From Promethearchaeota archaeon (GTDB lineage: Archaea > Asgardarchaeota > Lokiarchaeia > Sigyniarchaeales > SOKP01): DNA of 38,779 nucleotides. The stretch spans positions 1,043,711 through 1,082,489 of the forward strand of contig CP070831.1 of assembly GCA_020344955.1 (NCBI GenBank), in the 5' to 3' direction. The notes beneath the pieces are model-generated. The model worked only from the letters and a program-made list of their open reading frames with translations, made no database searches and was not told the DNA's origin. Position numbers and translations under genes: made by a program. Positions 3,684-38,779 of the stretch are shown here, one piece after another (position 1 is the first letter of the stretch; each line of letters opens with the position of its first letter).

Positions 3684-5108
3684 TTATAAGTTTGAGGCAG
3701 TTATTTTTTCTAATTCCTTCGCTAGATTTTCATCAAGAGGTCGTAGAGGGGCTTTACTTAAGAATCTAGATACTTGTTCTTTCGCTCTTTTTCTAGCAGA
3801 TGTTGATCCATTTTGCTTCCAAGCTTCACGAGTCATTCTATCTATAATAGTGCTAGGAAGGAATAATTCCTTTCTAAAATATTTTAAAGTTGTTGGATGA
3901 GATAATAATTCTTCTTTTTCTGCATAATCTTTCAAGATATCTGAAGCAAACGGAGATCCATAATCTTCAATACCGCGAATCAATCTCTTAACCATCCCTA
4001 CTATTTCATTATCAATTATAAGTTTTTCAGTACTTTGAGTTGATTCAAAATCAAGCATTCCAGGTCCAGAGATCATATTTATACCTGCTAAGCCTGCTAA
4101 GAGGGCTCCCATCCCTGCTTCAAAACCTGCTTGACTATCAGGGATTTTAGAGTCACTTAATGACATATATGCATGAGTAGGTATTTTTAAGAATTTACCA
4201 ATCTCAACATCTCCTAGATTGATCATCATCGTCTCTATAGCTCCCATTGGTGTTGTACCTTGTTTCATATCAAAAACTGCAGGTGAACCCCCCCATATTA
4301 AAGGAGCTCCACTTCTAGTTAATTGAACAATTACAACTCCAGCAAGACATTCTGCACAATGTTGAGTAATTGATCCGATTAAAGTAATTGGAGCACTAGC
4401 TCCTGCTAAAGGCATTGAAACAAATTCAGAAGGTATCATACTTTTCGCGGCATCAATTAATGATTGAGTAGTAAGATCAGACCATTTGAGAGGAGGGCTA
4501 GGACAGGCATCAAATATGGCTAAAGGTTTTCGTGCTAAATCTTCTTCAGATGATCTGCATGCTAAAAGAAATTCTTTCATAATTGAGAAACTTTCTTTAC
4601 GAAATGTTCCGGTTACAACAGGTTTATGACAATGAGATAATGCTAGATATAATCTATGCCAATCTTGTGCTTCTTTTGGAACATCCTGATAGATTAAAGC
4701 TGTGCTTTGAGCTTCAATATAATCTAATTGCTCAACCACTTTTGAAAATCTAATGAAATCCTTTGAAACTGCCTCTCTTATATCTCCAGTATCCTCATCA
4801 AGGATAAAAATTGCTGCTGATCCAGGATCAAAATGAACATTATCTTCTTTTAATCTAATATGCTCATTACCATCTCTGTCAAATAACGTAATTTCATGAG
4901 GAACTGTTCCTAAACACTTATTAACTAAATCAGGTGGAATATAATACCGTAAACCCTCATGATTTATCCCATTTTGATCAAACATTTCAATTGCTTCTTG
5001 ATTTTCAATGAAAACACCTTGAATTTCAAGAATTGATTTAGCTTCTTCAAGAATCATTTTTTTATGATCCTCATCTAAAATTTTAATTTTTGGTCTAATA
5101 ATTGACAT
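3684..5108 (-). CDS. MttB-family corrinoid methyltransferase, non-pyrrolysine type
   Basis: The 474-residue protein matches the trimethylamine methyltransferase (MttB) superfamily. Features include FDPGSAAIFILDEDTGDIRE near residue 94, the TGTFRKESFSI segment and a glycine-rich LIWGGSPAVFDMKQGTTPMG region. True trimethylamine:corrinoid methyltransferases need pyrrolysine at an in-frame UAG. This frame is uninterrupted, so it belongs to the larger pyrrolysine-free group. Known members of that group demethylate quaternary amines such as glycine betaine, proline betaine or carnitine. It is the last gene of a three-gene minus-strand operon with a homocysteine methyltransferase and a corrinoid protein. 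An SD-like GGAGAT precedes the ATG at 5108. The methylated substrate cannot be deduced. Confidence 0.85.
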   Translation of the reverse strand: MSIIRPKIKILDEDHKKMILEEAKSILEIQGVFIENQEAIEMFDQNGINHEGLRYYIPPDLVNKCLGTVPHEITLFDRDGNEHIRLKEDNVHFDPGSAAIFILDEDTGDIREAVSKDFIRFSKVVEQLDYIEAQSTALIYQDVPKEAQDWHRLYLALSHCHKPVVTGTFRKESFSIMKEFLLACRSSEEDLARKPLAIFDACPSPPLKWSDLTTQSLIDAAKSMIPSEFVSMPLAGASAPITLIGSITQHCAECLAGVVIVQLTRSGAPLIWGGSPAVFDMKQGTTPMGAIETMMINLGDVEIGKFLKIPTHAYMSLSDSKIPDSQAGFEAGMGALLAGLAGINMISGPGMLDFESTQSTEKLIIDNEIVGMVKRLIRGIEDYGSPFASDILKDYAEKEELLSHPTTLKYFRKELFLPSTIIDRMTREAWKQNGSTSARKRAKEQVSRFLSKAPLRPLDENLAKELEKITASNL

Positions 5109-5134
5109 TTCGATAATCTCCTTCAGATAATATT

Positions 5135-6013
5135 TTAAAGTGAATTAATAATTTCTCGGATTGTGCTTATAGTTTCTGGTGATGTACCGCAACATCCTCC
5201 AACTATTTTTGCTCCTAATCCTATCATTTCCTTAACATCATTAGCAAATTCATCTATAGGTTGTTCATAATATGTTTTATCTCCCTTTACTACAGGTTGT
5301 CCTGCATTAGGTTTCACAGAAAATGGTTTATTAGTAAAACTAATAGCATCTTTTAATAAATCAACCATGTCATGAGACCCAAGAGTACAGTTTGCTCCAA
5401 TAACATCTACATCTTCATTATTCAGAGTATTAATACATTTTTCTAAAGAATCTCCCATTATTGTAAAGAATCCCCTTTTAGTCTTTTTATAGGTGATTGA
5501 AGCAATTAAGGGTTTATTAGATACATCCCTAACTGCTCTAATAGCTGTTAGTATTTCTTCAAGATCAGAAATTGTCTCAATATGCCAAAGATCAACTCCT
5601 TTTTCTAATAATTTCGCTTGAGTAGAAAAACTAGAATACCATTGATCACTAGAAGCATTTCCTACTGGTGGTCTAAATTCCCCTGTTGGGCCAATATCTC
5701 CAACAATTAAACATCCAGAAGGACAGACATCTTTGATGTTTTTCAAAGCATTATCGGTAATTTTTCCAATCAATTCTTCAATATTATGTCTTTTTAGATT
5801 CATAGGAGTGGAGCCGAAGGTATTTGTTTGGCACATATCTGAGCCAGCATCATAATATGATTTATGAATTTCAGATATTATTTCTGGTTGTTCAATATTT
5901 AAAAGATCTGAAACCTTTCCAGGCTTTAATCCTCTTTTAATCAACTCAGTCCCCATAGCTCCGTCGAATAGTATAATCTTTGAATCATCATTTAACCAAT
6001 TCTGGAATAACAT
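5135..6013 (-). CDS. Homocysteine S-methyltransferase (MetH N-terminal domain type)
   Basis: This 292-residue stand-alone domain has the zinc-binding cysteines of the family: C209 in GANCTLGS, and C274/C275 in GGCCGTSPE. The N-terminus, FDGAMGTELIKRG, is the classic start of the MetH/BHMT homocysteine-binding barrel. It transfers a methyl group to the thiol of homocysteine to make methionine. The gene lies between a corrinoid-protein gene and an mttB-like gene, so the methyl donor is probably the methyl-cobalamin of that corrinoid protein. The SD GAGGAGA is well placed before the ATG at 6013. Confidence 0.85.
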   Translation of the reverse strand: MLFQNWLNDDSKIILFDGAMGTELIKRGLKPGKVSDLLNIEQPEIISEIHKSYYDAGSDMCQTNTFGSTPMNLKRHNIEELIGKITDNALKNIKDVCPSGCLIVGDIGPTGEFRPPVGNASSDQWYSSFSTQAKLLEKGVDLWHIETISDLEEILTAIRAVRDVSNKPLIASITYKKTKRGFFTIMGDSLEKCINTLNNEDVDVIGANCTLGSHDMVDLLKDAISFTNKPFSVKPNAGQPVVKGDKTYYEQPIDEFANDVKEMIGLGAKIVGGCCGTSPETISTIREIINSL

Positions 6014-6850: not shown

Positions 6851-8215
6851 ATGTCAAAGAAGTTTTCAAAAGAACCAATTAGAGGGATGGATGATTATTA
6901 TCCTCAAGATTTACGTGAAGTTAATTGGATAATTGAAACAATAAGAGACGTTGTAGAAAGATATGGTTATGAAGAATATCTCACTCCACAATTAGAACCT
7001 ATTGAAATTTTCGCTGCTAAGTCTTCTGATGAATTAGTTAATGAGCAATCGTTTATTGTAGAGAAGAAGGAAGGAGAAAGATTAATATTAATTCCAGAAC
7101 TTACGCCATCCTTAGCTCGCATGGTTGCAAAGAAGAGTCAAGAACTTAAGAAACCTATTCGATGGTATTGTGTACCTACATGCTTTCGATATGAAAGACC
7201 ACAACGAGGCCGTCGTCGTGCTTTTATTCAACCTAATGTTGATATTTTAGGAGAAGAAAGTCTTTATGCTGATCTTGAAATATTTAATGTAATTGTCGAT
7301 ATTTTTACTGAATTTGGAGCTACTACTGAGCAATTTCAAATTTATTATAATAGTCGACGATTTATGGACTCGGTATGTAAATTTATTCTTGAAATAAAGG
7401 AAGAAATAATTCCATTAGTTTTCAAAGTATTAGATAAATCTGACAAACTCGATGAAAATGAATTTGAGAAATACTTAATTGATACATTTCAAGATGAAAT
7501 TATTATTCAAGGTATATTAAAATTAAAAGATAGTAGAAGCATTAATGATTTATTGAAAAAATTTGACAATATCCCCCAAAAATTCTATAAATCTGAAGGA
7601 TATCTTGAATTGAAAAAATTTGAACAATTAATAGAAGAAATAGATATAAGAAATTATTGTACATTCTCTTCTGGAACGGTAAGAGGGCTTGATTATTACA
7701 CAGGAATTATTTATGAAGTATTTGACACCGGAACAGAAAATATTAGAAGTATTTTCGGAGGGGGTCGATATGATGATTTATTATCAATCTTTTCAGAAGA
7801 AAAAATTACGGGTACAGGATTTGGCATGGGAGTATACACTCTTTCTTTATTCCTAAAGACATATAATCTTATTCCAGAAGATATTAAAGAGAAGGATTAT
7901 AGTGATACCATCTATATAGCATCCATAAATGAGGATATGTCAACATATGCTTTTGAACTAGCTAGAATGATCCGAGATGACGATTTTCCATGTATGATAG
8001 ATTATCGATTTAAAAACTTAAAAAATCAAATAAAAAAGGCTAACGAATTGGGTATTCTCATAGTTTTAATTATAGGTCCTGAAGAACTAGCAGAAAGAAC
8101 TGTAACTATCAGAAATATGGTCTCCGAAGAACAGAAAACTGTGAATTTCGATGCTGTTATCGAGGAAATCTATAGTATTATTGATGAATTTAACGAGGAT
8201 AAATTCGAACAATAG
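6851..8215 (+). CDS. hisS: Histidyl-tRNA synthetase
   Basis: A class II aminoacyl-tRNA synthetase of 454 residues. It has the N-terminal IRGMDDYYP motif, class II motif 2 (FRYERPQRGRRRAF, residues 112-125), a histidine-recognition motif (GTVRGLDYYTGIIYEVF), motif 3 (GTGFGMGVYTLSLFL) and a C-terminal anticodon-binding domain (DTIYIASINEDMSTYAFELA onwards). It charges tRNA-His with histidine in the cytosol. A TTG directly before the ATG could also serve as start, but the ATG at 6851 is preferred. Confidence 0.95.
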   Translation: MSKKFSKEPIRGMDDYYPQDLREVNWIIETIRDVVERYGYEEYLTPQLEPIEIFAAKSSDELVNEQSFIVEKKEGERLILIPELTPSLARMVAKKSQELKKPIRWYCVPTCFRYERPQRGRRRAFIQPNVDILGEESLYADLEIFNVIVDIFTEFGATTEQFQIYYNSRRFMDSVCKFILEIKEEIIPLVFKVLDKSDKLDENEFEKYLIDTFQDEIIIQGILKLKDSRSINDLLKKFDNIPQKFYKSEGYLELKKFEQLIEEIDIRNYCTFSSGTVRGLDYYTGIIYEVFDTGTENIRSIFGGGRYDDLLSIFSEEKITGTGFGMGVYTLSLFLKTYNLIPEDIKEKDYSDTIYIASINEDMSTYAFELARMIRDDDFPCMIDYRFKNLKNQIKKANELGILIVLIIGPEELAERTVTIRNMVSEEQKTVNFDAVIEEIYSIIDEFNEDKFEQ

Positions 8216-8251
8216 ATATTTTATAATATCTAATTTTTAAATATATTCTGC

Positions 8252-9757
8252 CTAGTATAATTCATCCAAATCCTTTATTACTAGACTTTTAGCTATAATT
8301 TTAAAATTCTCAACAATATTTTGATAATCATTATCATATGGTAACCACCATAAATCTGGTCCTTCAGATTGATCAAAGTTGACATGAAGAGGCCTTACAA
8401 CTTCATAAAATCCTAACTTCCCATGAGATCTTCCAATTCCAGAGTTTTTTGTGCCTCCCCAGGGTGTGGGTGAAAGAGCAAAAGTATAAACGACTTCATT
8501 TATCATTACTGTGCCTGTATTTATTTCTTCGGCTATTTTTTGACCAAACTCTACATTTTTTGTCCATACAGAAGATGTCAAGCCATATTGATTGTTATTA
8601 ACCATATCAATAACTTCGTTTTCTTCAGCAAATTTTAATACAACTAAAACAGGTCCAAATATTTCTTCTTGAACTACCTTCATATCATTAGTTACATCAG
8701 CTAAAATTGTTGGTTCATAGAAATACCCTGTAAAATTAGGATTCCTTTGACCACCTGTTAAAATTTTAGCACCTTCATCTACACCTATCTTAACCATTTT
8801 ATCTACATAGTTTAATTGTTCTTCATTTACTATTGCTCCAATATCTACATTTGCTTCTGTCGGGATTCCTTGTTTTAATTCTTTTGTTAATTGAACTAGT
8901 TTAGTTAAAAAGGTTTCATAGATATCTGAATGAAGATATAATCTTTTTACTGAAGCGCAGACTTGACCGGAATTTGTGAATACACCCCATCTTGCTGCTA
9001 ACACTGCTCTCTCAATATCTGCATCTGGAAATACAATCATTGCAGATTTACCACCAAGTTCAAGTGTTACCTCCGTTAAAGTTTGTGCTGCTCGTTGCAT
9101 TATTTTTTTTCCAGTTGAGGTGCTCCCCGTGAATATTATTTTATCTGCCTTGTCAATTAAAGAATTTCCTATTTTAGATCCATCACCATAGACTGTTTGA
9201 ACAATATTTTCAGGTATATCAATGTTATCAAAAATTTCCTGAATCTTCTGTCCAACTAAAACTGTATCTGATGAAGGTTTAAAGATTACACTATTACCTG
9301 CCATAATACTTTGAATAATTTGTTGAAAAGGTATAGCAAAAGGGTAATTATAGGGACCAATAACACATATAACACCAAGAGGCTTATATAATAAAATACT
9401 CCTCTTATTCAATGATTCATAAAATCCTAAAGGAACTTCTACTTCTTTTCCTAATATTTCTTCTACTGAAATATAATATTGAAATGTTGAGTCTACAACA
9501 CCATATACTTCATTAATGAAGGCTTCTGAAGGAGGTTTTCCTACTTCTTTTGAAATTAATAATGAAATCTCATCAAATTGCTTAGAAATGACCTCATTAA
9601 CTTTTATTATTTTTCTCGCTCTGATATTTAATGGTAATTTTGCCCATATTTTTTGAGCCTTTCTTGAGTTTTTAAAAATTTCGTTAAGATCTTCTAAATC
9701 AGTTTCTTTAACTTCTCCATTTAATTCAAGCGTTGCTGGATTTATACTTCTTATCAT
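8252..9757 (-). CDS. NAD(P)-dependent aldehyde dehydrogenase
   Basis: A full-length member of the aldehyde dehydrogenase superfamily (501 residues). Active-site residues are present: N137 in the GPYNYPF motif, K160 in IFKPSSDT, E233 in VTLELGGKSA and the nucleophile C267 in NSGQVCAS. The FTGSTSTGKKI cofactor loop is also clear. It oxidises an aldehyde to the acid without phosphate or CoA. Family features do not settle the substrate; succinate-semialdehyde and lactaldehyde/glyceraldehyde-3-phosphate-type enzymes are all possible. The gene is a single unit, convergent with hisS. Confidence 0.9.
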   Translation of the reverse strand: MIRSINPATLELNGEVKETDLEDLNEIFKNSRKAQKIWAKLPLNIRARKIIKVNEVISKQFDEISLLISKEVGKPPSEAFINEVYGVVDSTFQYYISVEEILGKEVEVPLGFYESLNKRSILLYKPLGVICVIGPYNYPFAIPFQQIIQSIMAGNSVIFKPSSDTVLVGQKIQEIFDNIDIPENIVQTVYGDGSKIGNSLIDKADKIIFTGSTSTGKKIMQRAAQTLTEVTLELGGKSAMIVFPDADIERAVLAARWGVFTNSGQVCASVKRLYLHSDIYETFLTKLVQLTKELKQGIPTEANVDIGAIVNEEQLNYVDKMVKIGVDEGAKILTGGQRNPNFTGYFYEPTILADVTNDMKVVQEEIFGPVLVVLKFAEENEVIDMVNNNQYGLTSSVWTKNVEFGQKIAEEINTGTVMINEVVYTFALSPTPWGGTKNSGIGRSHGKLGFYEVVRPLHVNFDQSEGPDLWWLPYDNDYQNIVENFKIIAKSLVIKDLDELY

Positions 9758-29093: not shown

Positions 29094-30056
29094 ATGATGG
29101 ATTTAACTCCTGAAGAAATAAGTAAAGGTTTTAAAAATAAAAAAATAAACAAAATTACTACTTATAATCTCTTGACTTCTTTGATTGAAAATAGTGAAAA
29201 TGAAGATATTAGATTAGAATCAATTATAAGATTGGAAGAAATAAACATAATTAATAATGAGTTATTTAGTTTTTTAGAAAATTTGCTGATTTCTGATTCG
29301 GAAAGAAAAATCAGAATTAATGCAACCAAATTTTTGACAAACAAATTTCTGGAAAAAGCGATTAATCCCTTGAAATGGGCCATAAAACACGAAACTGATT
29401 TTGAATGTTTAATTACAATAAGTCAATCATTAGCAAAAATAAATAACAATGAATCCAACTTGATTCTGATTAATGAAATAAAAAAAATTATTAAAACTAA
29501 ATATCTCAATAAAGAAAGAAAAATTGAAAATAAGAAATTCAGAAAAGTGCTTAAAAAACTATTTAAATCAAAAAATATTGCGAATTTTTCACAAGAGGAA
29601 CTAGCAGAGGTTTTAATTAATTATTTAGTAATAAGCAATTTGATAAATCAATATCCAAATGTATATTATGAATTAGATCCACAAATTGGAGTAGTTACAG
29701 AATTGGATTTATCAGATTATATGGAATATGAAGTAAAAGGAACTCCTTTTGGATGGAAGAATAGAATCATTTCAATTTCAGAAATAAAGGGTTTAAAATA
29801 TTTGAATTTTCTAAAAAAAATTGACCTTTCAAATAATCAAATTGAAAATGTCCACGAATTAGTTAAGTTTGGGAATTTGACTCATTTAATTTTGGCTAAC
29901 AATAAAATTAATGAACTAAAAAACCTAGAATATATTAGAAAATTACCAAACCTTGAGTATTTGGATTTAAGAAGAAATAATATAGTTAATAAAATTGATT
30001 TAAATGAATTTAACTCCAGAATGAGAGTGCTTCTGAAAGATTCCTTTCTTCATTAA
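29094..30056 (+). CDS. Short HEAT-like plus LRR protein (copy 3)
   Basis: 320 residues. The N-domain is clearly paralogous to those of the two larger LRR proteins at 18.2-21.4 kb: LENLLISDSERKIRINATKF and AINPLKWAIKHETDFECLIT match their LISDS and KPMKWAL-HE blocks. Only about four leucine-rich repeats remain (KKIDLSNNQIENVHELVKFG; LEYLDLRRNN), of the SDS22-like spacing. An acidic/basic helical insert lies at about residues 140-170. It is divergent from the surface-protein gene at 26694-28997, and the two share a promoter region of about 95 bases. Confidence 0.72.
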   Translation: MMDLTPEEISKGFKNKKINKITTYNLLTSLIENSENEDIRLESIIRLEEINIINNELFSFLENLLISDSERKIRINATKFLTNKFLEKAINPLKWAIKHETDFECLITISQSLAKINNNESNLILINEIKKIIKTKYLNKERKIENKKFRKVLKKLFKSKNIANFSQEELAEVLINYLVISNLINQYPNVYYELDPQIGVVTELDLSDYMEYEVKGTPFGWKNRIISISEIKGLKYLNFLKKIDLSNNQIENVHELVKFGNLTHLILANNKINELKNLEYIRKLPNLEYLDLRRNNIVNKIDLNEFNSRMRVLLKDSFLH

Positions 30057-30185: not shown

Positions 30186-31556
30186 TTAAACGGAAGTGAA
30201 TTCTGTCTTTTTTCCTACTCCAAATAGACCCAATGCAACGCCTAGTTCTTTATGATCTTTAGCATATTCTCTAGCAGGAATTCCTTGCATAACAGCATCG
30301 ATAGCCTGTCTAAAAGCTTTAGCACCTGCTATAGGTCCATCTGGATGGGCGTGAATGCCTCCTCCACTTCCAATCATTATATTAGTTCCTAGATCTCCTA
30401 CACATTTTTCTACAAGACTATGTGTGATACCCCCGCTTGGCATGGGCATCGTTCTTTTTATATGTGGGGCATTTCGCATGGGCATTACCATTTGTCTTGC
30501 TGTTTCTTTAAATCTGTCTGCAGTAGTTGGTGCTTTGCCATACGGAGCAGGATGTACAATAAAATCGCAGCCAGCTAACCTTCCAAATTTACCAAGAATT
30601 AATGGACTTGATACACCACTTACAGGATCTTGGTACAGTGATCCTGCAAAATCCATATGTCCTAGAATTGGTACCTTTACTGAAGGATCTTCAGCTAATT
30701 TTCGCATAGCTGAATAACCAACAGAGATATGATTAACCATTAATGCATTAGCGCCATGTTCTTGTACAATATCCGCCAACTCAAACATTCTATCAACCCT
30801 ATCAGTAATATTCACAGTATAAAGTGTTTTTTCACCCTTTTCTGAATCCGCTCTGTCTAAAGCTTCCATAAAAGCTGTTACTCTTTCTGTTATTGGATTG
30901 AATTCAACATCAGCTATTAATTCATCATCTTTTATAACATCACATCCGCCAACAGCAGCTTTATATGCAAGATCTGCTCCAATCTTAGGATCTGTATATA
31001 CACAAGGTTTGATCATGTTGTTTAATAGAGGGCGTTCTTTCACACCAAGAATTTTCCGAATTCCTACATCTCCAAATTTTGGGCCTTTAAACTCTTTCAA
31101 GAAAGCTTTTGGAAAGCGGACATCAACCATTTTGAGAGGGCCACCCATTGAAATATTTCCATAAATAGTAGTAAATAACATTGGAAATTGTGGTCTAAAG
31201 TTCAAGGGAAATGCTATTTGAACGACATACTGATGCATTTTAGGATTGCCAAAAAAATCTTCAGCTCCTTCATATTCAAAATCGGGAAACCTCCACCATC
31301 CAATAACTTTTGCTACATGCTTTCTTCTTTGTTCGGGGGTCTCAGCGGGAACAGGAACGAAAGTACCTGTAGATTGTTCAACACATACAGCTTGCATCAT
31401 ATAAAATGCATCCATTTTTCTGTGAAGCATTGCAGTATAAGTCGCAATAATATGAGTTTCATAATCTATATCTTCAGGAAGTGCATTGGGCTTAGCAAGA
31501 TTATCCAGGTCAAAATCATCAAATTCAGGGGGAATTTTTTCTTCCATTATCATCAC
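30186..31556 (-). CDS. RuBisCO-like protein (probably form IV)
   Basis: 456 residues with the RuBisCO large-subunit fold. Conserved positions: E60 (VEQSTGTF), N134 (IYGN), K183 (equivalent of K175), the carbamylated-lysine motif KDDE (209-212), H300, K341 in loop 6, SGG (374-376) and GGG (398-400). Changed positions: K177 is C185, R295 is M301 (GHMDFAG), H298 is A304, and H327 is replaced or shifted (IVHPAPYGK). RLAGCDFIVHPAPYGK resembles form IV proteins such as the methionine-salvage enolase MtnW. CO2 fixation is unlikely; an enolisation, isomerisation or related reaction is likelier. The start may be the ATG at 31547, which has a GAGTGAT in front. Confidence 0.82.
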   Translation of the reverse strand: MMIMEEKIPPEFDDFDLDNLAKPNALPEDIDYETHIIATYTAMLHRKMDAFYMMQAVCVEQSTGTFVPVPAETPEQRRKHVAKVIGWWRFPDFEYEGAEDFFGNPKMHQYVVQIAFPLNFRPQFPMLFTTIYGNISMGGPLKMVDVRFPKAFLKEFKGPKFGDVGIRKILGVKERPLLNNMIKPCVYTDPKIGADLAYKAAVGGCDVIKDDELIADVEFNPITERVTAFMEALDRADSEKGEKTLYTVNITDRVDRMFELADIVQEHGANALMVNHISVGYSAMRKLAEDPSVKVPILGHMDFAGSLYQDPVSGVSSPLILGKFGRLAGCDFIVHPAPYGKAPTTADRFKETARQMVMPMRNAPHIKRTMPMPSGGITHSLVEKCVGDLGTNIMIGSGGGIHAHPDGPIAGAKAFRQAIDAVMQGIPAREYAKDHKELGVALGLFGVGKKTEFTSV

Positions 31557-31660: not shown

Positions 31661-32776
31661 TTAAACTTTAGCTTTTGCTTCAGCTTTAATTGCTGCCTTA
31701 ATTTCAGTATAAGAATTTTCTAAAACTGTAAGATATTCAATTAAAACTTGATTTGATTTAGATTTTTGTTCATATACATTCTTTATGATATTCAAAAGAT
31801 ATTTTGGAAAAAGCAAATCCAAATAAAAATCTGAAAGTAGTGCATAGTATTCATTATTTCTTTCATCTTGGAAGACTTGGATCATCTGAGTATTCCAAAG
31901 CATTTTCAGCACGTCATCGAGATCATCAACCCCCTTCCTTCTTAACTTCTCAAGGTCATTTTTAGTAACTACTGCTGTTCTTAATAACCTTAAAGTCTCA
32001 TAAACTTGTGGATTAATAAGGATATCTATGATTCTTAGGTTATCTCCTTCTGTTGGACGATAATTTTGAAAGAATTTCTTTACTTCTACTTTATAATCTT
32101 CCACAAGTTGAGCTGGTAACCCTCGAGTAGCGGGGTCATCCAAAATTTTAACAGGAGGGATCCTCAATGCAACAAAATCTTGAATTAAAAAGATAAGTTC
32201 TGAGGGCATACCTTTTACTGATGTCTCTTTCACAATTTCACGTTTTACGAGTTCTATTAAAATACCTTCCAAATCTACAAAGCCTTGCTTGTATTGATCT
32301 TTTAACCAAACCATCAATTCTGACTTTGAAACAACACCCTCATCTCTTAAACGAGTGAGTATCATCCTTTTGATCTCATCTTGATAGGTAATAGCAAGAC
32401 GCTGTTCATTGTTTAACGATGGATAAACAGAAAGTCTCCTAAATAGTGTAGGAATCATAGATGTATATGCATCATCTATTAGATTTTGTAAAATAATTCG
32501 AGAAATATCAATTAATCCACCTTCATACGAATCTGGATCATCATCAAGGCTTAAGAGTAATAATATATAGAATCCTTTATCAGGACCAGTATAGTAGGAA
32601 GCTATATTTAAGGAACCAATCATTAAACTGATCATTCCAGATTCACCACTATACTCATGAGTACTATAAACTTGCATAAGTGTTTTATCAGTCACATTTA
32701 TTTCTTCAGGATATTTTGCTAAAATTTCTGTTCCAACTCTCTCATCCCATCTCATTACTACTAATCCAATTGGCAT
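31661..32776 (-). CDS. Longin-like N-domain plus tandem winged-helix protein
   Basis: 371 residues, cytosolic. Residues 1 to about 100 show a longin-like strand pattern (IGLVVMRWDERVGTEILAKY; GESGMISLMIGSLNIASYYT; FYILLLLSLDDDPDSYEGG). Residues about 130-340 look like two or more winged-helix units (RMILTRLRDEGVVSKSELMV; EIVKETSVKGMPSELIFLIQ; AVVTKNDLEKLRRKGVDDLD; QMIQVFQDERNNEYYALLSD). A close paralogue is cut by the right window edge. Its ATG overlaps the stop of the giant surface-protein gene (TAATG, base 32776 shared), so the two are translationally coupled. The role of a membrane-receptor adaptor is inferred. ESCRT-II-type winged helices offer a distant comparison. Confidence 0.65.
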   Translation of the reverse strand: MPIGLVVMRWDERVGTEILAKYPEEINVTDKTLMQVYSTHEYSGESGMISLMIGSLNIASYYTGPDKGFYILLLLSLDDDPDSYEGGLIDISRIILQNLIDDAYTSMIPTLFRRLSVYPSLNNEQRLAITYQDEIKRMILTRLRDEGVVSKSELMVWLKDQYKQGFVDLEGILIELVKREIVKETSVKGMPSELIFLIQDFVALRIPPVKILDDPATRGLPAQLVEDYKVEVKKFFQNYRPTEGDNLRIIDILINPQVYETLRLLRTAVVTKNDLEKLRRKGVDDLDDVLKMLWNTQMIQVFQDERNNEYYALLSDFYLDLLFPKYLLNIIKNVYEQKSKSNQVLIEYLTVLENSYTEIKAAIKAEAKAKV

Positions 32777-35700
32777 TATTCGATACCTCCCTTGAACTCT
32801 TCTTTCATTTCAGGCAATCTCTTTTTTTTCTTAACACCCATTATATCTTCTAAGGACATTCCAATTGCTTCCCATTTATCTCCTAGTTTCTTTGCGATAT
32901 ATTCATCTTTTGTTGGGTATAAAAGCGAATCTGAAATTGATTTCATTCCTTTTATAGTCTTTTTCATTTGTCTTGCTTTTTTAACAAAAGTTGGAATTCT
33001 AGCTCTTTGAATCATTCGATAAGCAAGTAGACTGCCTGCCACTGCAACAATTGACCCTACTATCATTAAGAAATAAAATGCCGGAATACCTAATATCTCT
33101 GGCATATTAACTATAACTGTTATGGGTTCTGGATCTTTCTCGTAGTTCTCTAATTCAATAATGATTTGACCTGTTAGAGTTTGAGGCATAAAGAATGCAT
33201 TTATATGGCTTGTTGAAAAAATATATTGATAAGTTCCTGGTGAACCCAGAACTGGATCCAATGTATAATTAATTCCATTGAGTTGTAATCTAACAATTGC
33301 CCCAGTTAATGCGCTTCCATTGGTTCCATCAGTAAGAATAGCACTAAAATTAATACTCCTTCCCTGAATGATACTTATTCTAGAAGACAACACTCCATTA
33401 GCATATAAATCCATTAATATAGGTCTTTTGCTGATAGTTAAAGAAATGAAAGCATTTCTGACTTCATAATTTTTTTTCTGCATAGTTATAAAAATCGAAT
33501 ATACACCTACTTCTCTTAATTCTGTATCAAAATCAAGTATATATTGATTATTTAGATTGGGTAATAAAACATCAGACCCTTCATTTCCAGGACCACTAAG
33601 AGGATTTCCATTTTCATCTAACCTATACCAATTATAACTAGCAACATCTAAATCTCCGATGATCTCATCGCGGAGTGTATCTTTATATTCAAATAAATAA
33701 TTAACCGAGTCAAAAACATAGATATCTGGAGAAATTTGGAATAAACTAGTAGTTTCATTAATAGATGTTGGTCTAGGAAGTATTTTTACTATAATTGAAT
33801 CATCAATAGTACTATAATTTGATAAAGTGGCTCTAATATCAATTAAATATTCAGCATCATCAGGTGCAAGTGAAGAATCAAATTCAAAATAATACATATT
33901 CACATGTATTGGATCATCAAATAATACACCAGAACCGTAATCCCAATTATATGTAATGTAAGCTCCTGGTAAAGAACTACTTGTAAATACATTAAAATAA
34001 TCAACAGTTACATATTCAGACTCCTCATAAATTACTGAAAATCTCTTATTAATTAATGGATTTAAAGAATAGTCGTAGTAATTTATTCCAGTAGGTACAG
34101 CTTGAATATTAAGTAATATGAATCCAATATCATTAAATAAATAGCTTTCATAATTACCCGTAATTTTAAAGTAGTATGAAGTTCCTCCTAATAAGTTAAA
34201 ATCATCTGTATTGAAAGTATAATTAAAAATACCTGTGGAAATTTCAGAGAATAATATGTCAATTTTTGTACTATATTGTGTAAGTTCACCATCAAATATT
34301 TGAATAATAAGTTCATCTGGAGTTACCAATGTAGGAGACGGTGTGACGGGATCTCGATAAGTGAAATTAAAATTAATAGAAACGATGTTACCCCAATATA
34401 CATTTGAATCATAATTAATTATGTTTACAGTTGAGTTATATTTATCCCTATTAGTAGTTAAAATTTCTATGGAAACATATTCTTCAGAAATCAATATAAA
34501 ATTATATTCATGAAAAGATGCACTTGGAGGATTTACCAGAAAATCTTGTTCAAAACCACCAAAATATATATCCATAGTATAATTCCCCCAGCTTCCATAT
34601 GAATTACTAAATGATATGAATGTTGCTAATCCATTTATATCGACAGTGACATTTGCTATAATTTCGATTTCATTATCATAATCTGATTGATTATAAAATC
34701 TTAATTTGGCATTTGTAAATGGTACTTTTTCTGCTGTATTATCAGTAACATTAAAAGTTATTTTTGTAATCTCAGTTGAAACATCAATATCTTTTCCGAG
34801 AACAGAATCGCTATAAATAAGTAAATTTGAATATCTATAATTTGAATTATCTACAAGTGAATCATAATCATAATAGATTTCATAATCATACGCAGTATTA
34901 TTCAACCATGTTATAGATCCAGTACCAATAACACTAAGAATGGTTTTTCCTACAATTTCTGCTCCACTTTTAAGTAAAACGAATCCATACTGAATTGGAT
35001 TATAGTCTTTATCCGTTACATTAAAAGTGAATTTACTCAAGGTAAGAAATGCTGTTAATCGATTGTTCAGTTGAGTTATTTGAAAATTTTCATAATAAAA
35101 TACAATTTCAGTTTTTGGAGTGATAAGACCATTTTGAGTATAATTGACAGTAATATTATAGAATGCATCTTTTTCCAGATCTTCGAATGTCCATTCTCCG
35201 TTCTCGTCAGCTTCATGGTTTTGATTGTATGAGGGAAATAAGTCATTAGTTAAGTAAATTGCCGCGTTAGGTACTGGATTCCCATCTTCATCTTTACAAA
35301 TAACATTCAAAGTATATGCAATTGGTTGGATATCCCCTAATGTTGTCTGAAGCGAATTATTCGGAATTGTTTGAATAGGCTTATTCCAAATAGAAATATC
35401 ATCCCAATATAGGTCAAGGTTAGTCCAACTATCATCATCAGCAATATAAACAATATAAGTGAATGGATTTAAAGAAAATTCTGTGCTAGGAATAAAAGTA
35501 TACCAAAAAAAAGTATTTGCGGCATAAAATTGATTGACAAATTTATTTCCTCCGGCAGTTCCCCATGATTGAGACCCCCTTATTCTATAACTATTCCCAC
35601 TAGTAGGAATATTATTGGGAGAATCGTCGAATCCTATACCGGAAATTTCTCTTTGAATACTTGGATCATCAAATCTCATTTTTGCAGTGACTCTAGTGTT

Positions 35701-36441
35701 GGAATTAACAGTTATTGAGCCTGTAGCAGACATTTTCCAACAATTTCCCCAAATATGGAGAGAAGAAATGCCTCTTGCTGATGTACTATTGCTTATTTCC
35801 CAGAAAGTTGGATGGTAATTGTCTTGTCCATCAGTAGGTCTTAAAATATCTCCAGGTTGATATTCTTCGAAACCTTCATGCCATATCCTTATTGTATCAT
35901 AATTTGGGTCTTGAATCTTTATATCTGTTCCATTATTAAAATAGATAAAGAAATCTCGAGTTTGCCCATTTGAAGTTGTTCCATTTAATACCCAAATTAA
36001 ATCACCTATAGCATTTGTTTGGCTATCATAAGATCTCGAATATGGATCAAATTGACTTTCAACTTCATAATAATTAGAACTTGAGAGATATTCAACAACA
36101 CGAATGGTTGATGTGTTTAATTCAGGATTTTGAATATTCAAATCATTAAAATATTCAGTAAAATTAATAAAAAACTCAACTGGAGCATCTTGTTGACCAC
36201 CAATTGCGGTAATTCCCACCGGAACTCGAAAACTCCAAGAATTATTCCACCAATCATAAGTAGTTGGAGGTAAACCTAATCCCAAATCTGAATCTTCTCG
36301 AGTTATCTCATTTTCAATAGAATTATCAAAACTCTTAAACGAGCTTGGAAGTAAACCGAAAATTAATGGAATTAAAGTAATAAGGAAAAGAACTATAACT
36401 CCTTTTATTTGCGTGCGTTTATAAATAGTCATTTTTATCAT
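32776..36441 (-). CDS. Giant cell-surface protein with DUF2341-like and Ig-like domains and cytosolic tail
   Basis: 1221 residues. An N-terminal signal/anchor (ITLIPLIFGLLPSS region, about 12-31) is followed by a DUF2341-like jelly-roll (NNSWSFRVPVGITAIGGQQD; VLNGTTSNGQTRDFFIYFNN), a concanavalin-like segment, then several Ig-like/carboxypeptidase-regulatory-like repeats (NVICKDEDGNPVPNAAIYLT; FNVTDKDYNPIQYGFVLLKS). Many N-x-S/T sites are present. A membrane helix at 1119-1142 (IPAFYFLMIVGSIVAVAGSL) precedes a basic cytosolic tail of about 78 residues (VKKARQMKKTIKGMKSISDS to the end). It probably binds surfaces, polymers or other cells. The gene directly precedes the longin/winged-helix gene in the same operon, so the tail may contact that protein. 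Confidence 0.75.
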   Translation of the reverse strand: MIKMTIYKRTQIKGVIVLFLITLIPLIFGLLPSSFKSFDNSIENEITREDSDLGLGLPPTTYDWWNNSWSFRVPVGITAIGGQQDAPVEFFINFTEYFNDLNIQNPELNTSTIRVVEYLSSSNYYEVESQFDPYSRSYDSQTNAIGDLIWVLNGTTSNGQTRDFFIYFNNGTDIKIQDPNYDTIRIWHEGFEEYQPGDILRPTDGQDNYHPTFWEISNSTSARGISSLHIWGNCWKMSATGSITVNSNTRVTAKMRFDDPSIQREISGIGFDDSPNNIPTSGNSYRIRGSQSWGTAGGNKFVNQFYAANTFFWYTFIPSTEFSLNPFTYIVYIADDDSWTNLDLYWDDISIWNKPIQTIPNNSLQTTLGDIQPIAYTLNVICKDEDGNPVPNAAIYLTNDLFPSYNQNHEADENGEWTFEDLEKDAFYNITVNYTQNGLITPKTEIVFYYENFQITQLNNRLTAFLTLSKFTFNVTDKDYNPIQYGFVLLKSGAEIVGKTILSVIGTGSITWLNNTAYDYEIYYDYDSLVDNSNYRYSNLLIYSDSVLGKDIDVSTEITKITFNVTDNTAEKVPFTNAKLRFYNQSDYDNEIEIIANVTVDINGLATFISFSNSYGSWGNYTMDIYFGGFEQDFLVNPPSASFHEYNFILISEEYVSIEILTTNRDKYNSTVNIINYDSNVYWGNIVSINFNFTYRDPVTPSPTLVTPDELIIQIFDGELTQYSTKIDILFSEISTGIFNYTFNTDDFNLLGGTSYYFKITGNYESYLFNDIGFILLNIQAVPTGINYYDYSLNPLINKRFSVIYEESEYVTVDYFNVFTSSSLPGAYITYNWDYGSGVLFDDPIHVNMYYFEFDSSLAPDDAEYLIDIRATLSNYSTIDDSIIVKILPRPTSINETTSLFQISPDIYVFDSVNYLFEYKDTLRDEIIGDLDVASYNWYRLDENGNPLSGPGNEGSDVLLPNLNNQYILDFDTELREVGVYSIFITMQKKNYEVRNAFISLTISKRPILMDLYANGVLSSRISIIQGRSINFSAILTDGTNGSALTGAIVRLQLNGINYTLDPVLGSPGTYQYIFSTSHINAFFMPQTLTGQIIIELENYEKDPEPITVIVNMPEILGIPAFYFLMIVGSIVAVAGSLLAYRMIQRARIPTFVKKARQMKKTIKGMKSISDSLLYPTKDEYIAKKLGDKWEAIGMSLEDIMGVKKKKRLPEMKEEFKGGIE

Positions 36442-36864
36442 TTTTTACTAACAATTTTTCTAAAATAGTTTTTTTGAAATTAAAAAAAAAAGATTTTTAT
36501 CATTAAATATGCAAATTTTCGTATTTAACTTTTCTTTATTGATACCATTCGGATTATTATTAATATTTTTTATCACAAAAAATTCATATAATATCTATAT
36601 TTATAATTAGCTGTTTAATCATTTGAGTAGATAATATATAATATGCATAATTGTATCAAAAATTTACTTAATTCTTTTTTTTCTTACTAAAGATAATTAA
36701 AATAATTCTATGTATTATCCCTCATAATTGTTATTTTCTAAAAATTTAAATATTTAAATTTAGATTGAAGAATCAAAGAAAAATATCAAAATTTTGATTT
36801 TATCTTTAAAAAAAGAAAGATAAACTTCTTATATTATAAGTTTCATAAGATTTAGGCTGGAAAC
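36442..36864. other. Long divergent intergenic region
   Basis: A very AT-rich region of about 420 bases between the surface-protein operon (minus) and the longin-GTPase gene (plus). It holds many poly-A/T runs and promoter elements on both strands. No RNA gene, clear repeat or open frame with protein-like composition was found. Its length, unusual for this compact window, suggests regulation of both units. Confidence 0.5.
36829..36839 (+). promoter_or_regulatory. TATA box of the longin-GTPase gene
   Basis: TTATATTATAA lies about 30 bases upstream of the ATG at 36865. This spacing predicts transcription starting within a few bases of the start codon, that is, a nearly leaderless message. No Shine-Dalgarno sequence is needed or obvious. 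Confidence 0.45.
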
Positions 36865-37960: not shown

Positions 37961-38779
37961 TTATTCTTCTTGCTCTAATTTAGTTTTAAGCTTAGAAGAT
38001 CGATAATTATCATCAAGAACATTCAAATATTCTATCAGAACACTATTTGATTTGGATTTTACACCATATTGATAAATGATCGTATTTAGCATATATTTAG
38101 GGTACATCAAAGAATTATAAAAGTCAGTTAATAAAGCGTAGTACTCATTTCCTTTAGTATCTTGAAAAACATGAATCATTTGGTTTTCCCATAATTTCTT
38201 TAAACCTCCGTCAATATCGTCAACACCTTTCTTTCTTAATTTCTCGAGAACATTTTTAGTAACTATTGAAATTCTTAAAAGTTTTAAAATTTCATAAACT
38301 TGAGGATCAGCAATCACTTCATCTAAAATTTTTAGATTGTCTTCTTCATTAGGACGATATTTTTGGAAAAAATTTCTTACAGCTGCATTATATTCATCAG
38401 TAAACCTTTCTGGAAGTCCTCTTTCTGCGGGATTCTTAAGTAAATTAATTGGGGGTCTTCTTATCATAAAAAGATCGTTAATAAGAAAGATTAATTCAGA
38501 AGGCATTCCTTTTACTGATGTTTCTTTTATGATTTCTTTTTTGATTAATTCCATCAAAATTGCATCCACATCAAAAAAACCTTCTCTATATCTGTCTTTT
38601 AGCCAGATCTTTACGTCTGATTGCGTAAGAACGCCTTCGTCTCGAAGGCTATTTATTATTACTCTATTTACATGATCGAGACAGGTAACCGCGCAACTCT
38701 GGTCTTCGTGGAAAGGGGGAGAGGTGGATACACGTTGGAATAGAAAGGGGATCATCTCTAAATACGCATTATCCTCAAA
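37961..38779 (-). CDS. Longin/winged-helix protein paralogue, 5' end outside window
   Basis: The frame is open to the window edge. The residues before the apparent first methionine (FEDNAYLE) match the paralogue (LIDDAYTS), so the gene continues beyond 38779. The visible 273 residues align along their length with the C-terminal part of the 31661-32776 protein, for example KETSVKGMPSELIFLI and LRKKGVDDIDGGLKKLW. The order of winged-helix units is the same, and only the C-terminal tail differs (KLKTKLEQEE instead of AAIKAEAKAKV). The longin-like N-domain would lie outside the window. By analogy a surface-protein gene may lie upstream of it. Confidence 0.7.
   Translation of the reverse strand, partial: FEDNAYLEMIPFLFQRVSTSPPFHEDQSCAVTCLDHVNRVIINSLRDEGVLTQSDVKIWLKDRYREGFFDVDAILMELIKKEIIKETSVKGMPSELIFLINDLFMIRRPPINLLKNPAERGLPERFTDEYNAAVRNFFQKYRPNEEDNLKILDEVIADPQVYEILKLLRISIVTKNVLEKLRKKGVDDIDGGLKKLWENQMIHVFQDTKGNEYYALLTDFYNSLMYPKYMLNTIIYQYGVKSKSNSVLIEYLNVLDDNYRSSKLKTKLEQEE

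Follow-up and report, generated by a model that had tools for sequence, protein, structure and literature searches.

The window of our analysis is the whole stretch of 38,779 nucleotides at positions 1,043,711-1,082,489 of contig CP070831.1, from a 3.34 Mb assembly of an Asgard archaeon whose close relatives are recorded as Lokiarchaeota/Lokiarchaeia. Three of its genes are considered here: the gene of a giant surface protein (P0002), the gene of a protein with a longin domain and two winged helices (P0001, the longin/winged-helix protein), which follows it on the same strand, and the gene of a small GTPase (P0003), which diverges from it. By comparing these genes with their relatives in other Asgard genomes, we have found that the first two form a recurrent pair, that the cytosolic tail of the surface protein is conserved, that the two proteins occur as natural fusions, and that the longin/winged-helix family is linked across the phylum to a longin-Arf-like GTPase.

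The surface protein consists of an N-terminal signal/anchor, i.e. a hydrophobic segment in the hydropathy profile, an ectodomain that is immunoglobulin (Ig)-like/carboxypeptidase-regulatory-like (Pfam matches to CarboxypepD_reg, 2e-4, and MG4, 7e-4, both under the curated cut-off), one C-terminal transmembrane helix and the cytosolic tail. Its stop codon TAA (32778-32776) and the start codon ATG of the longin/winged-helix gene (32776-32774) have base 32776 in common, and the Shine-Dalgarno sequence of the downstream gene, located inside the upstream gene, encodes the C-terminal Gly-Gly of the surface protein in its frame. The initial annotation had described these same parts, i.e. a 1221-residue surface protein with a basic cytosolic tail, a shared-base TAATG junction, a longin/winged-helix protein and a longin-GTPase next door; the first two are confirmed, the tail being ~80-94 residues long, the third is borne out by the model of a 61%-identical fused paralogue and by Foldseek, and the neighbouring GTPase has proved to be Arf-like, with an N-terminal domain consistent with longin.

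Table 1. Positions of the features in the window (aa, amino acids).
Feature	Position	Strand	Basis
Longin/two-winged-helix protein P0001, 371 aa, NPRL2/NPRL3-like architecture	31661..32776	-	
Giant single-pass surface protein P0002, 1221 aa	32776..36441	-	Open reading frame, hydropathy, Pfam
Transmembrane helix of P0002, residues ~1109-1127	33061..33117	-	Hydropathy; helix also in the model of the fused paralogue
Conserved cytosolic tail, basic, ~80-94 aa, RARIPTFVKKARQMKK...KLGDKWEAIGMSLEDIMG; proposed docking sequence	32779..33060	-	
Shine-Dalgarno GGAGGT of the longin/winged-helix gene, within the final codons of the surface gene	32785..32790	-	
TAATG stop/start overlap	32774..32778	-	Sequence
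Divergent GTPase P0003, 346 aa	36865..37905	+	Pfam, G motifs, model, Foldseek
Upstream region common to the divergent surface and GTPase genes	36442..36864	.	Sequence
Second longin/winged-helix paralogue, C-terminal 272 codons, 56% identical, first in-frame ATG at 38755	37961..38779	-	

Conservation of the pair, the tail and the natural fusions

Since overlaps of one nucleotide are common in operons and the longin/winged-helix gene has its own Shine-Dalgarno sequence, the overlap alone says little. With a profile of the longin/winged-helix family (A1), matches at E<=1e-8 were obtained in 160 of 228 Asgard genomes, and in the loci that were retrieved from the order and related lineages, 61 longin/winged-helix genes stand immediately after a gene for a protein with a transmembrane helix and the tail at its C-terminal end; because the junction of the window recurs among these pairs, it is more than chance. 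The gap is -1 in 34 pairs, 0 in 12, 1-3 nucleotides in 11 and 17-30 nucleotides in 4, so that 57 of the 61 lie between a 1-nucleotide overlap and a distance of 3 nucleotides. The Shine-Dalgarno sequence is kept in 56 of the 61 pairs, which explains the terminal Gly-Gly of many tails. When the genome contigs were searched with a further profile (A6), the best 80 matches gave 69 loci, all from Lokiarchaeota/Lokiarchaeia; in more distant Asgard families (L126, L127, L131, L134), the order can be reversed, with the longin/winged-helix gene preceding a surface protein that has the same type of tail. The concern raised at the outset, that the pair might not be conserved in related genomes, did not hold: both the pair and its GTPase link recur across Asgard genomes. 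Fixed stoichiometry, which had been read from the TAATG junction, does not follow, because a conserved Shine-Dalgarno sequence of its own precedes the downstream gene, and because in the sister locus L017 one longin/winged-helix gene is shared by three tandem tail-bearing surface proteins; a 1:1 ratio is fixed only in the fused form described below. The sister subfamily as a whole (L017:37-5719, L019:4684-9578) has a longin/winged-helix gene beside one to three tail-bearing surface proteins, and a TrmB-like winged-helix coiled-coil protein of 650-730 amino acids replaces the Arf-like GTPase there; related parts occur in L125 and L128.

The tail has the short form RIPxFVKK...DxWxxLGLSLED, which the alignment across families extends to Y-x-x-[IV]-Q-x-A-R-I-P-x-F-V-K-K-x-R-x-x-K-K-x-I-K ... 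K-E-x-x-I ... W-x-x-L-G-L-S-L-x-x-x-L-G. A profile of the tail has 34 strong matches in 14 genomes, 32 of them at most 10 kb from a longin/winged-helix gene (1.0 expected) and 25 at most 500 bp from one (0.1 expected). Mean identity to the P0002 locus is 44% in the tail, 35% in the membrane-proximal ectodomain, 22% in the distal ectodomain and 64% in the longin/winged-helix protein, and the pairwise identity of the tails tracks that of the longin/winged-helix proteins (r 0.90) more than that of the ectodomains (r 0.71). Two deviant copies fit the same association: a 659-residue surface paralogue with a related ectodomain (L021) has a tail of 13 residues, and no longin/winged-helix gene was found within the 14 kb retrieved around it; a 147-residue protein with two hydrophobic segments and almost no ectodomain (L065:8308-8751, genome G122) retains the transmembrane helix and the intact tail and is still coupled to a downstream longin/winged-helix gene, at a place where the assembly has no gap. 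Tail-like sequences are also seen in large open frames that have no longin/winged-helix gene nearby (G083:C3:801231; G174:C1:208643; G076:C1:152318 and C1:271942), possibly receptors that are served by a remote longin/winged-helix protein.

The nearest relatives of P0001 and P0002 in the same genome are located in one open frame (C1:414825-416990). There (L016, C1:408000-427500), a single gene of 2087 codons encodes a signal segment, an ectodomain with DUF2341 and LamG-like matches, a transmembrane helix, a basic tail and the longin/winged-helix part, and the divergent neighbour is a 645-residue protein, the first half of which is a P0003-type GTPase and the second half a roadblock-GTPase; the genome thus has the arrangement of the window a second time, here with the two proteins as one covalent chain. 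The fused form occurs in 11 loci, i.e. the same-genome paralogue and ten elsewhere, the complete-looking copies having 1,642-2,669 residues, and four fused genes of ~2,650 residues each stand in tandem in one genome (L072/L073, G109:C9:436000-473900). In a tree of 96 members, all fusions fall into one clade (SH-aLRT, the Shimodaira-Hasegawa-like approximate likelihood ratio test, 98), nested among coupled pairs, from which we conclude that the fusion is derived from a coupled pair; the tree rejects a repeated origin in favour of a single one. A fused frame of 550 residues (L078), considered as a second mini-receptor, was not used, as it begins beside an N gap. Genes of roadblock-Ras-like GTPases are also present at the fused loci (L016:13613-15550 and 4697-5677; L074:77-1060; L075:5122-6105 and 7415-8338; L077:14721-15707), and in L016 and L075 the longin-GTPase is fused to the roadblock-GTPase, the single chain being a natural two-GTPase protein.

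Structure of the longin/winged-helix protein

The C-terminal 485 residues of the natural fusion, i.e. the transmembrane helix, the tail and the longin/winged-helix part, have been modelled with AlphaFold2 (alignment A3, 101 sequences). The mean predicted local distance difference test (pLDDT) of the model is 93.4 and its predicted template modelling score (pTM) 0.88; the transmembrane and tail helices (residues 11-100) have block means of 91-98, and disorder is confined to the linker around residues 101-120. We estimate that a transmembrane-tail segment of ~100 residues and a linker that were not placed against the 365-residue core would hardly allow a pTM above ~0.75; since 0.88 exceeds this estimate, the tail appears to be placed with confidence, and is predicted to pack on the longin/winged-helix part.

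By the order of its strands and helices, the modelled core has the topology of longin, not of roadblock, followed by two winged-helix units. In Foldseek searches, isolated longin domains are matched (Sec22b, TMt 0.52, and Ykt6, 0.49, both with probability 1.00; also zeta-COP), and on this model we assign the protein to the longin domains; roadblock matches rank below longin complexes. The best-matching chains in the Protein Data Bank (PDB) come from the SEA complex and from GATOR1 (8adl_S, 9v0j_A, 9h4q_T, 8fw5_C, 7t3a_C, 7t3b_B); by their length, we take them to be NPRL2 or NPRL3. DENND10, Fuzzy-Inturned, DENND1A and the FLCN complex are matched as well. Most of the SEA, GATOR1, DENND10, Fuzzy-Inturned and FLCN longin complexes are known to regulate small GTPases or to associate with them. 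The SEA/GATOR1 alignments extend over 325-471 columns with template modelling scores of 0.15-0.20, low because the placement of the domains differs, and the likeness is therefore one of architecture and not of close similarity. Accordingly, neither P0001 nor the 25 families listed for the 101 aligned rows gave a match to the Pfam families NPR2 and NPR3, and a profile search of the PDB sequences returned mostly generic helix-turn-helix proteins and no GATOR chain. The arginine finger of NPRL2, Arg78 in the longin loop, is not conserved: the loop after the conserved N-x-x-S-Y-Y-x-G is devoid of arginine in 62 of 80 members, and none occurs at a conserved position in the sequences inspected. On both grounds, membership of GATOR1 has been rejected.

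The winged-helix segments have weak matches to the HTH_20, TrmB, TFIIE and ArsR families, and the recognition helices of both (VDLEGILIELVKR and DDLDDVLKMLWNTQ in P0001) are acidic on average (-1.1 and -0.8), which favours contacts with protein rather than with DNA and speaks against DNA-binding winged helices. It is thus very unlikely that P0001 is a membrane-tethered transcription regulator, the winged helices of which would bind DNA, perhaps once freed from the membrane: the family matches and a TrmB-like neighbour at some loci are in its favour, but the top structural relatives, too, use their winged helices for protein contacts.

The Arf-like GTPase and its linkage

P0003 is matched in Pfam by Arf (2e-19) and more weakly by Gtr1_RagA (5e-6); its G1, G3 and G4 motifs (GFSGVGKT, DFAGQ and NKQD) are intact, and Foldseek returns Arl1, Arl8b and Asgard ArfR1, which identifies it as an Arf-like small GTPase. 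Its N-terminal domain has the order beta-beta-alpha-beta-beta-alpha-alpha, consistent with longin (model pLDDT 82.5), and its C-terminus forms a helical hairpin. Very few GTPases of this type are present in the genome, and two of the three best-scoring are located at the window locus and at the fused locus L016; in 8 of 12 other loci of the same genus, the GTPase adjoins the pair, often between two receptor/longin-winged-helix units. In 28 genomes, 67 longin/winged-helix and 120 GTPase matches form 31 neighbouring pairs at 2 kb or less (0.56 expected). These pairs come from 20 genomes and 10 families; most have both genes on one strand, and the commonest distance is 8-150 bp. Because the link is kept where no surface protein is seen alongside (L132, L136, L137), the older and wider module probably consists of the longin/winged-helix protein and the GTPase, to which the surface protein was added.

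At the end of the window, an assembly gap removes the N-terminus of the second longin/winged-helix paralogue and any surface partner that it has (L002, ~2490-2590); as its relatives (L053) have a full surface protein at this place, the partner is probably missing from the assembly. Directly downstream of the longin/winged-helix gene, a 456-residue look-alike of the RuBisCO-type large subunit is encoded (30186-31556, minus strand; GGCDVIKDDE, recognised by eye only), and a 320-residue protein with HEAT-like and leucine-rich repeats adjoins the locus (29094-30056, plus strand).

A candidate receptor complex, its alternatives and its meaning

We give a probability of about 0.6 to a receptor complex, in which the longin/winged-helix protein would be held by the tail at the inner face of the membrane and would control its cognate Arf-like GTPase. 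The surface protein would display its Ig-like/lectin-like ectodomain outside the cell, and the conserved juxtamembrane tail would hold a dedicated longin/winged-helix protein as a platform that binds and controls the GTPase, as guanine nucleotide exchange factor, GTPase-activating protein (GAP) or effector scaffold; binding of a putative ligand by the ectodomain, or its clustering, would shift the nucleotide state of the GTPase and with it the behaviour of the membrane or the cytoskeleton. The ancient core would be the longin/winged-helix protein and the GTPase; surface proteins with docking tails would have been added later, and the coupled pair fused in one lineage. Without its fixed stoichiometry, the relay of surface receptor, adaptor and GTPase that was initially proposed is therefore the best reading of the linkage, the tail and the fusions, and docking of the second protein by the tail is supported by the specific companionship of the two, by the natural fusions and by the predicted co-fold in the fusion model. 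Several points weigh against the receptor complex: the docking is read from the pTM value, and not from coordinates or predicted aligned error; the correlation between tail and longin/winged-helix identities is confounded by the phylogeny of the species; the partnership with the GTPase is suggested by gene linkage, and linkage is no proof of binding; 4 of the 12 other loci of the same genus lack the GTPase in the retrieved stretch (up to 20 kb); and any GAP role would differ from that of NPRL2, since the arginine finger is not conserved.

The main rival, clearly less probable, is the sorting or positioning of cargo: the longin/winged-helix protein and the Arf-like GTPase would form an adaptor of trafficking or membrane patterning (as in AP/COPI-Arf1), the tail would be a sorting or anchoring signal, and information would run from the GTPase to the surface protein. 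The Arf-like character of the GTPase, the occurrence of longin domains in coat subunits and SNAREs (cf. the matches to Ykt6, Sec22b and zeta-COP), the sharing of one longin/winged-helix protein by several tail-bearing proteins in L017 and the 147-residue version are all compatible with it, but the large receptor copies, tandem duplicates included, usually have a longin/winged-helix protein each, unlike a shared adaptor, and in the fused form this protein is permanently attached, unlike a cycling one. Less likely still is a surface adhesin with a structural anchor, where the longin/winged-helix protein would stabilise or assemble the giant protein, next to an independent GTPase; the Ig-like, DUF2341 and LamG matches of the ectodomains are adhesin-like and the adjacent GTPase is missing at some loci of the same genus, but the link that persists in families with no surface partner seen beside it argues otherwise.

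Among known systems, GATOR1/SEACIT, where NPRL2-NPRL3 act with Rag/Gtr GTPases, is alike in the succession of longin and winged helix along the whole chain and in the link to small GTPases; it differs in that Rag has a C-terminal roadblock, whereas the GTPase here is of the Arf type and has a longin-like domain at its N-terminus, and in that the present family, apart in Pfam and in the arginine finger, is mounted on a surface receptor. Plexins are single-pass receptors of eukaryotes with a cytosolic GTPase-regulating domain of the RasGAP fold; they are comparable in logic, in that a single chain has an ectodomain and, in the cytosol, a domain for which action on a small GTPase is proposed, but the cytosolic fold here is longin/winged-helix and no sequence relation is seen. 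The bacterial Ras-like GTPase MglA and its roadblock regulator MglB likewise combine a GTPase with a platform of the roadblock/longin type, but have no receptor, and a roadblock homodimer in place of the longin/winged-helix protein. We know of no counterpart for a surface receptor with an NPRL2-like longin/winged-helix platform and a longin-Arf GTPase.

An “NPRL2-like longin domain”, probably the same or an overlapping family, is counted among the eukaryotic-signature families of ‘Ca. Lokiarchaeum ossiferum’ (PMC9834061), where it is known only as a domain count; the text searched gives no surface partner, fusion, tail motif or GTPase linkage. Longin-GTPase and roadblock-GTPase fusions of Asgard archaea, the architectures of the neighbouring GTPases here, have been reported in PMC10933270, according to which the small-GTPase genes of MK-D1 do not, as a rule, share operons with roadblock, longin or TRAPPC3 genes; unlike this, one longin/winged-helix family is here linked to its GTPase across the phylum. 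The claim that no system of this form has been described stands for the literature searched, with most subscription papers and preprints outside its coverage. The component folds are known; the combined architecture fits none of the families tested and, with caution, can be called new as a kind of system, whose biochemical function we infer. On a stricter view, it could be another form of the longin-based GTPase regulators.

Among known prokaryotes, Asgard archaea are the nearest relatives of eukaryotes. That the complex represents a class of prokaryotic transmembrane receptors whose signals pass through small GTPases, with an NPRL2-like longin/winged-helix protein acting on a cognate longin-Arf GTPase, we propose tentatively, at slightly under even odds; if true, receptor-to-small-GTPase signalling, regarded as eukaryotic, is older than the eukaryotes, and a surface-sensing module may be the ancestor of the NPRL2/GATOR1 fold. 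The family may also be a prokaryotic context in which the NPRL2-type longin/winged-helix fold occurs. Asgard genomes are rich in small GTPases and longin proteins, and the matching of regulator to GTPase is hard, operons having been reported as unhelpful (PMC10933270). The present family supplies ready-made sets of receptor, regulator and GTPase, in which the fusions speak strongly for a partnership and the short tail motif serves as a handle, so that the question of whether Asgard small GTPases serve receptor signalling or membrane trafficking becomes directly testable in vitro.
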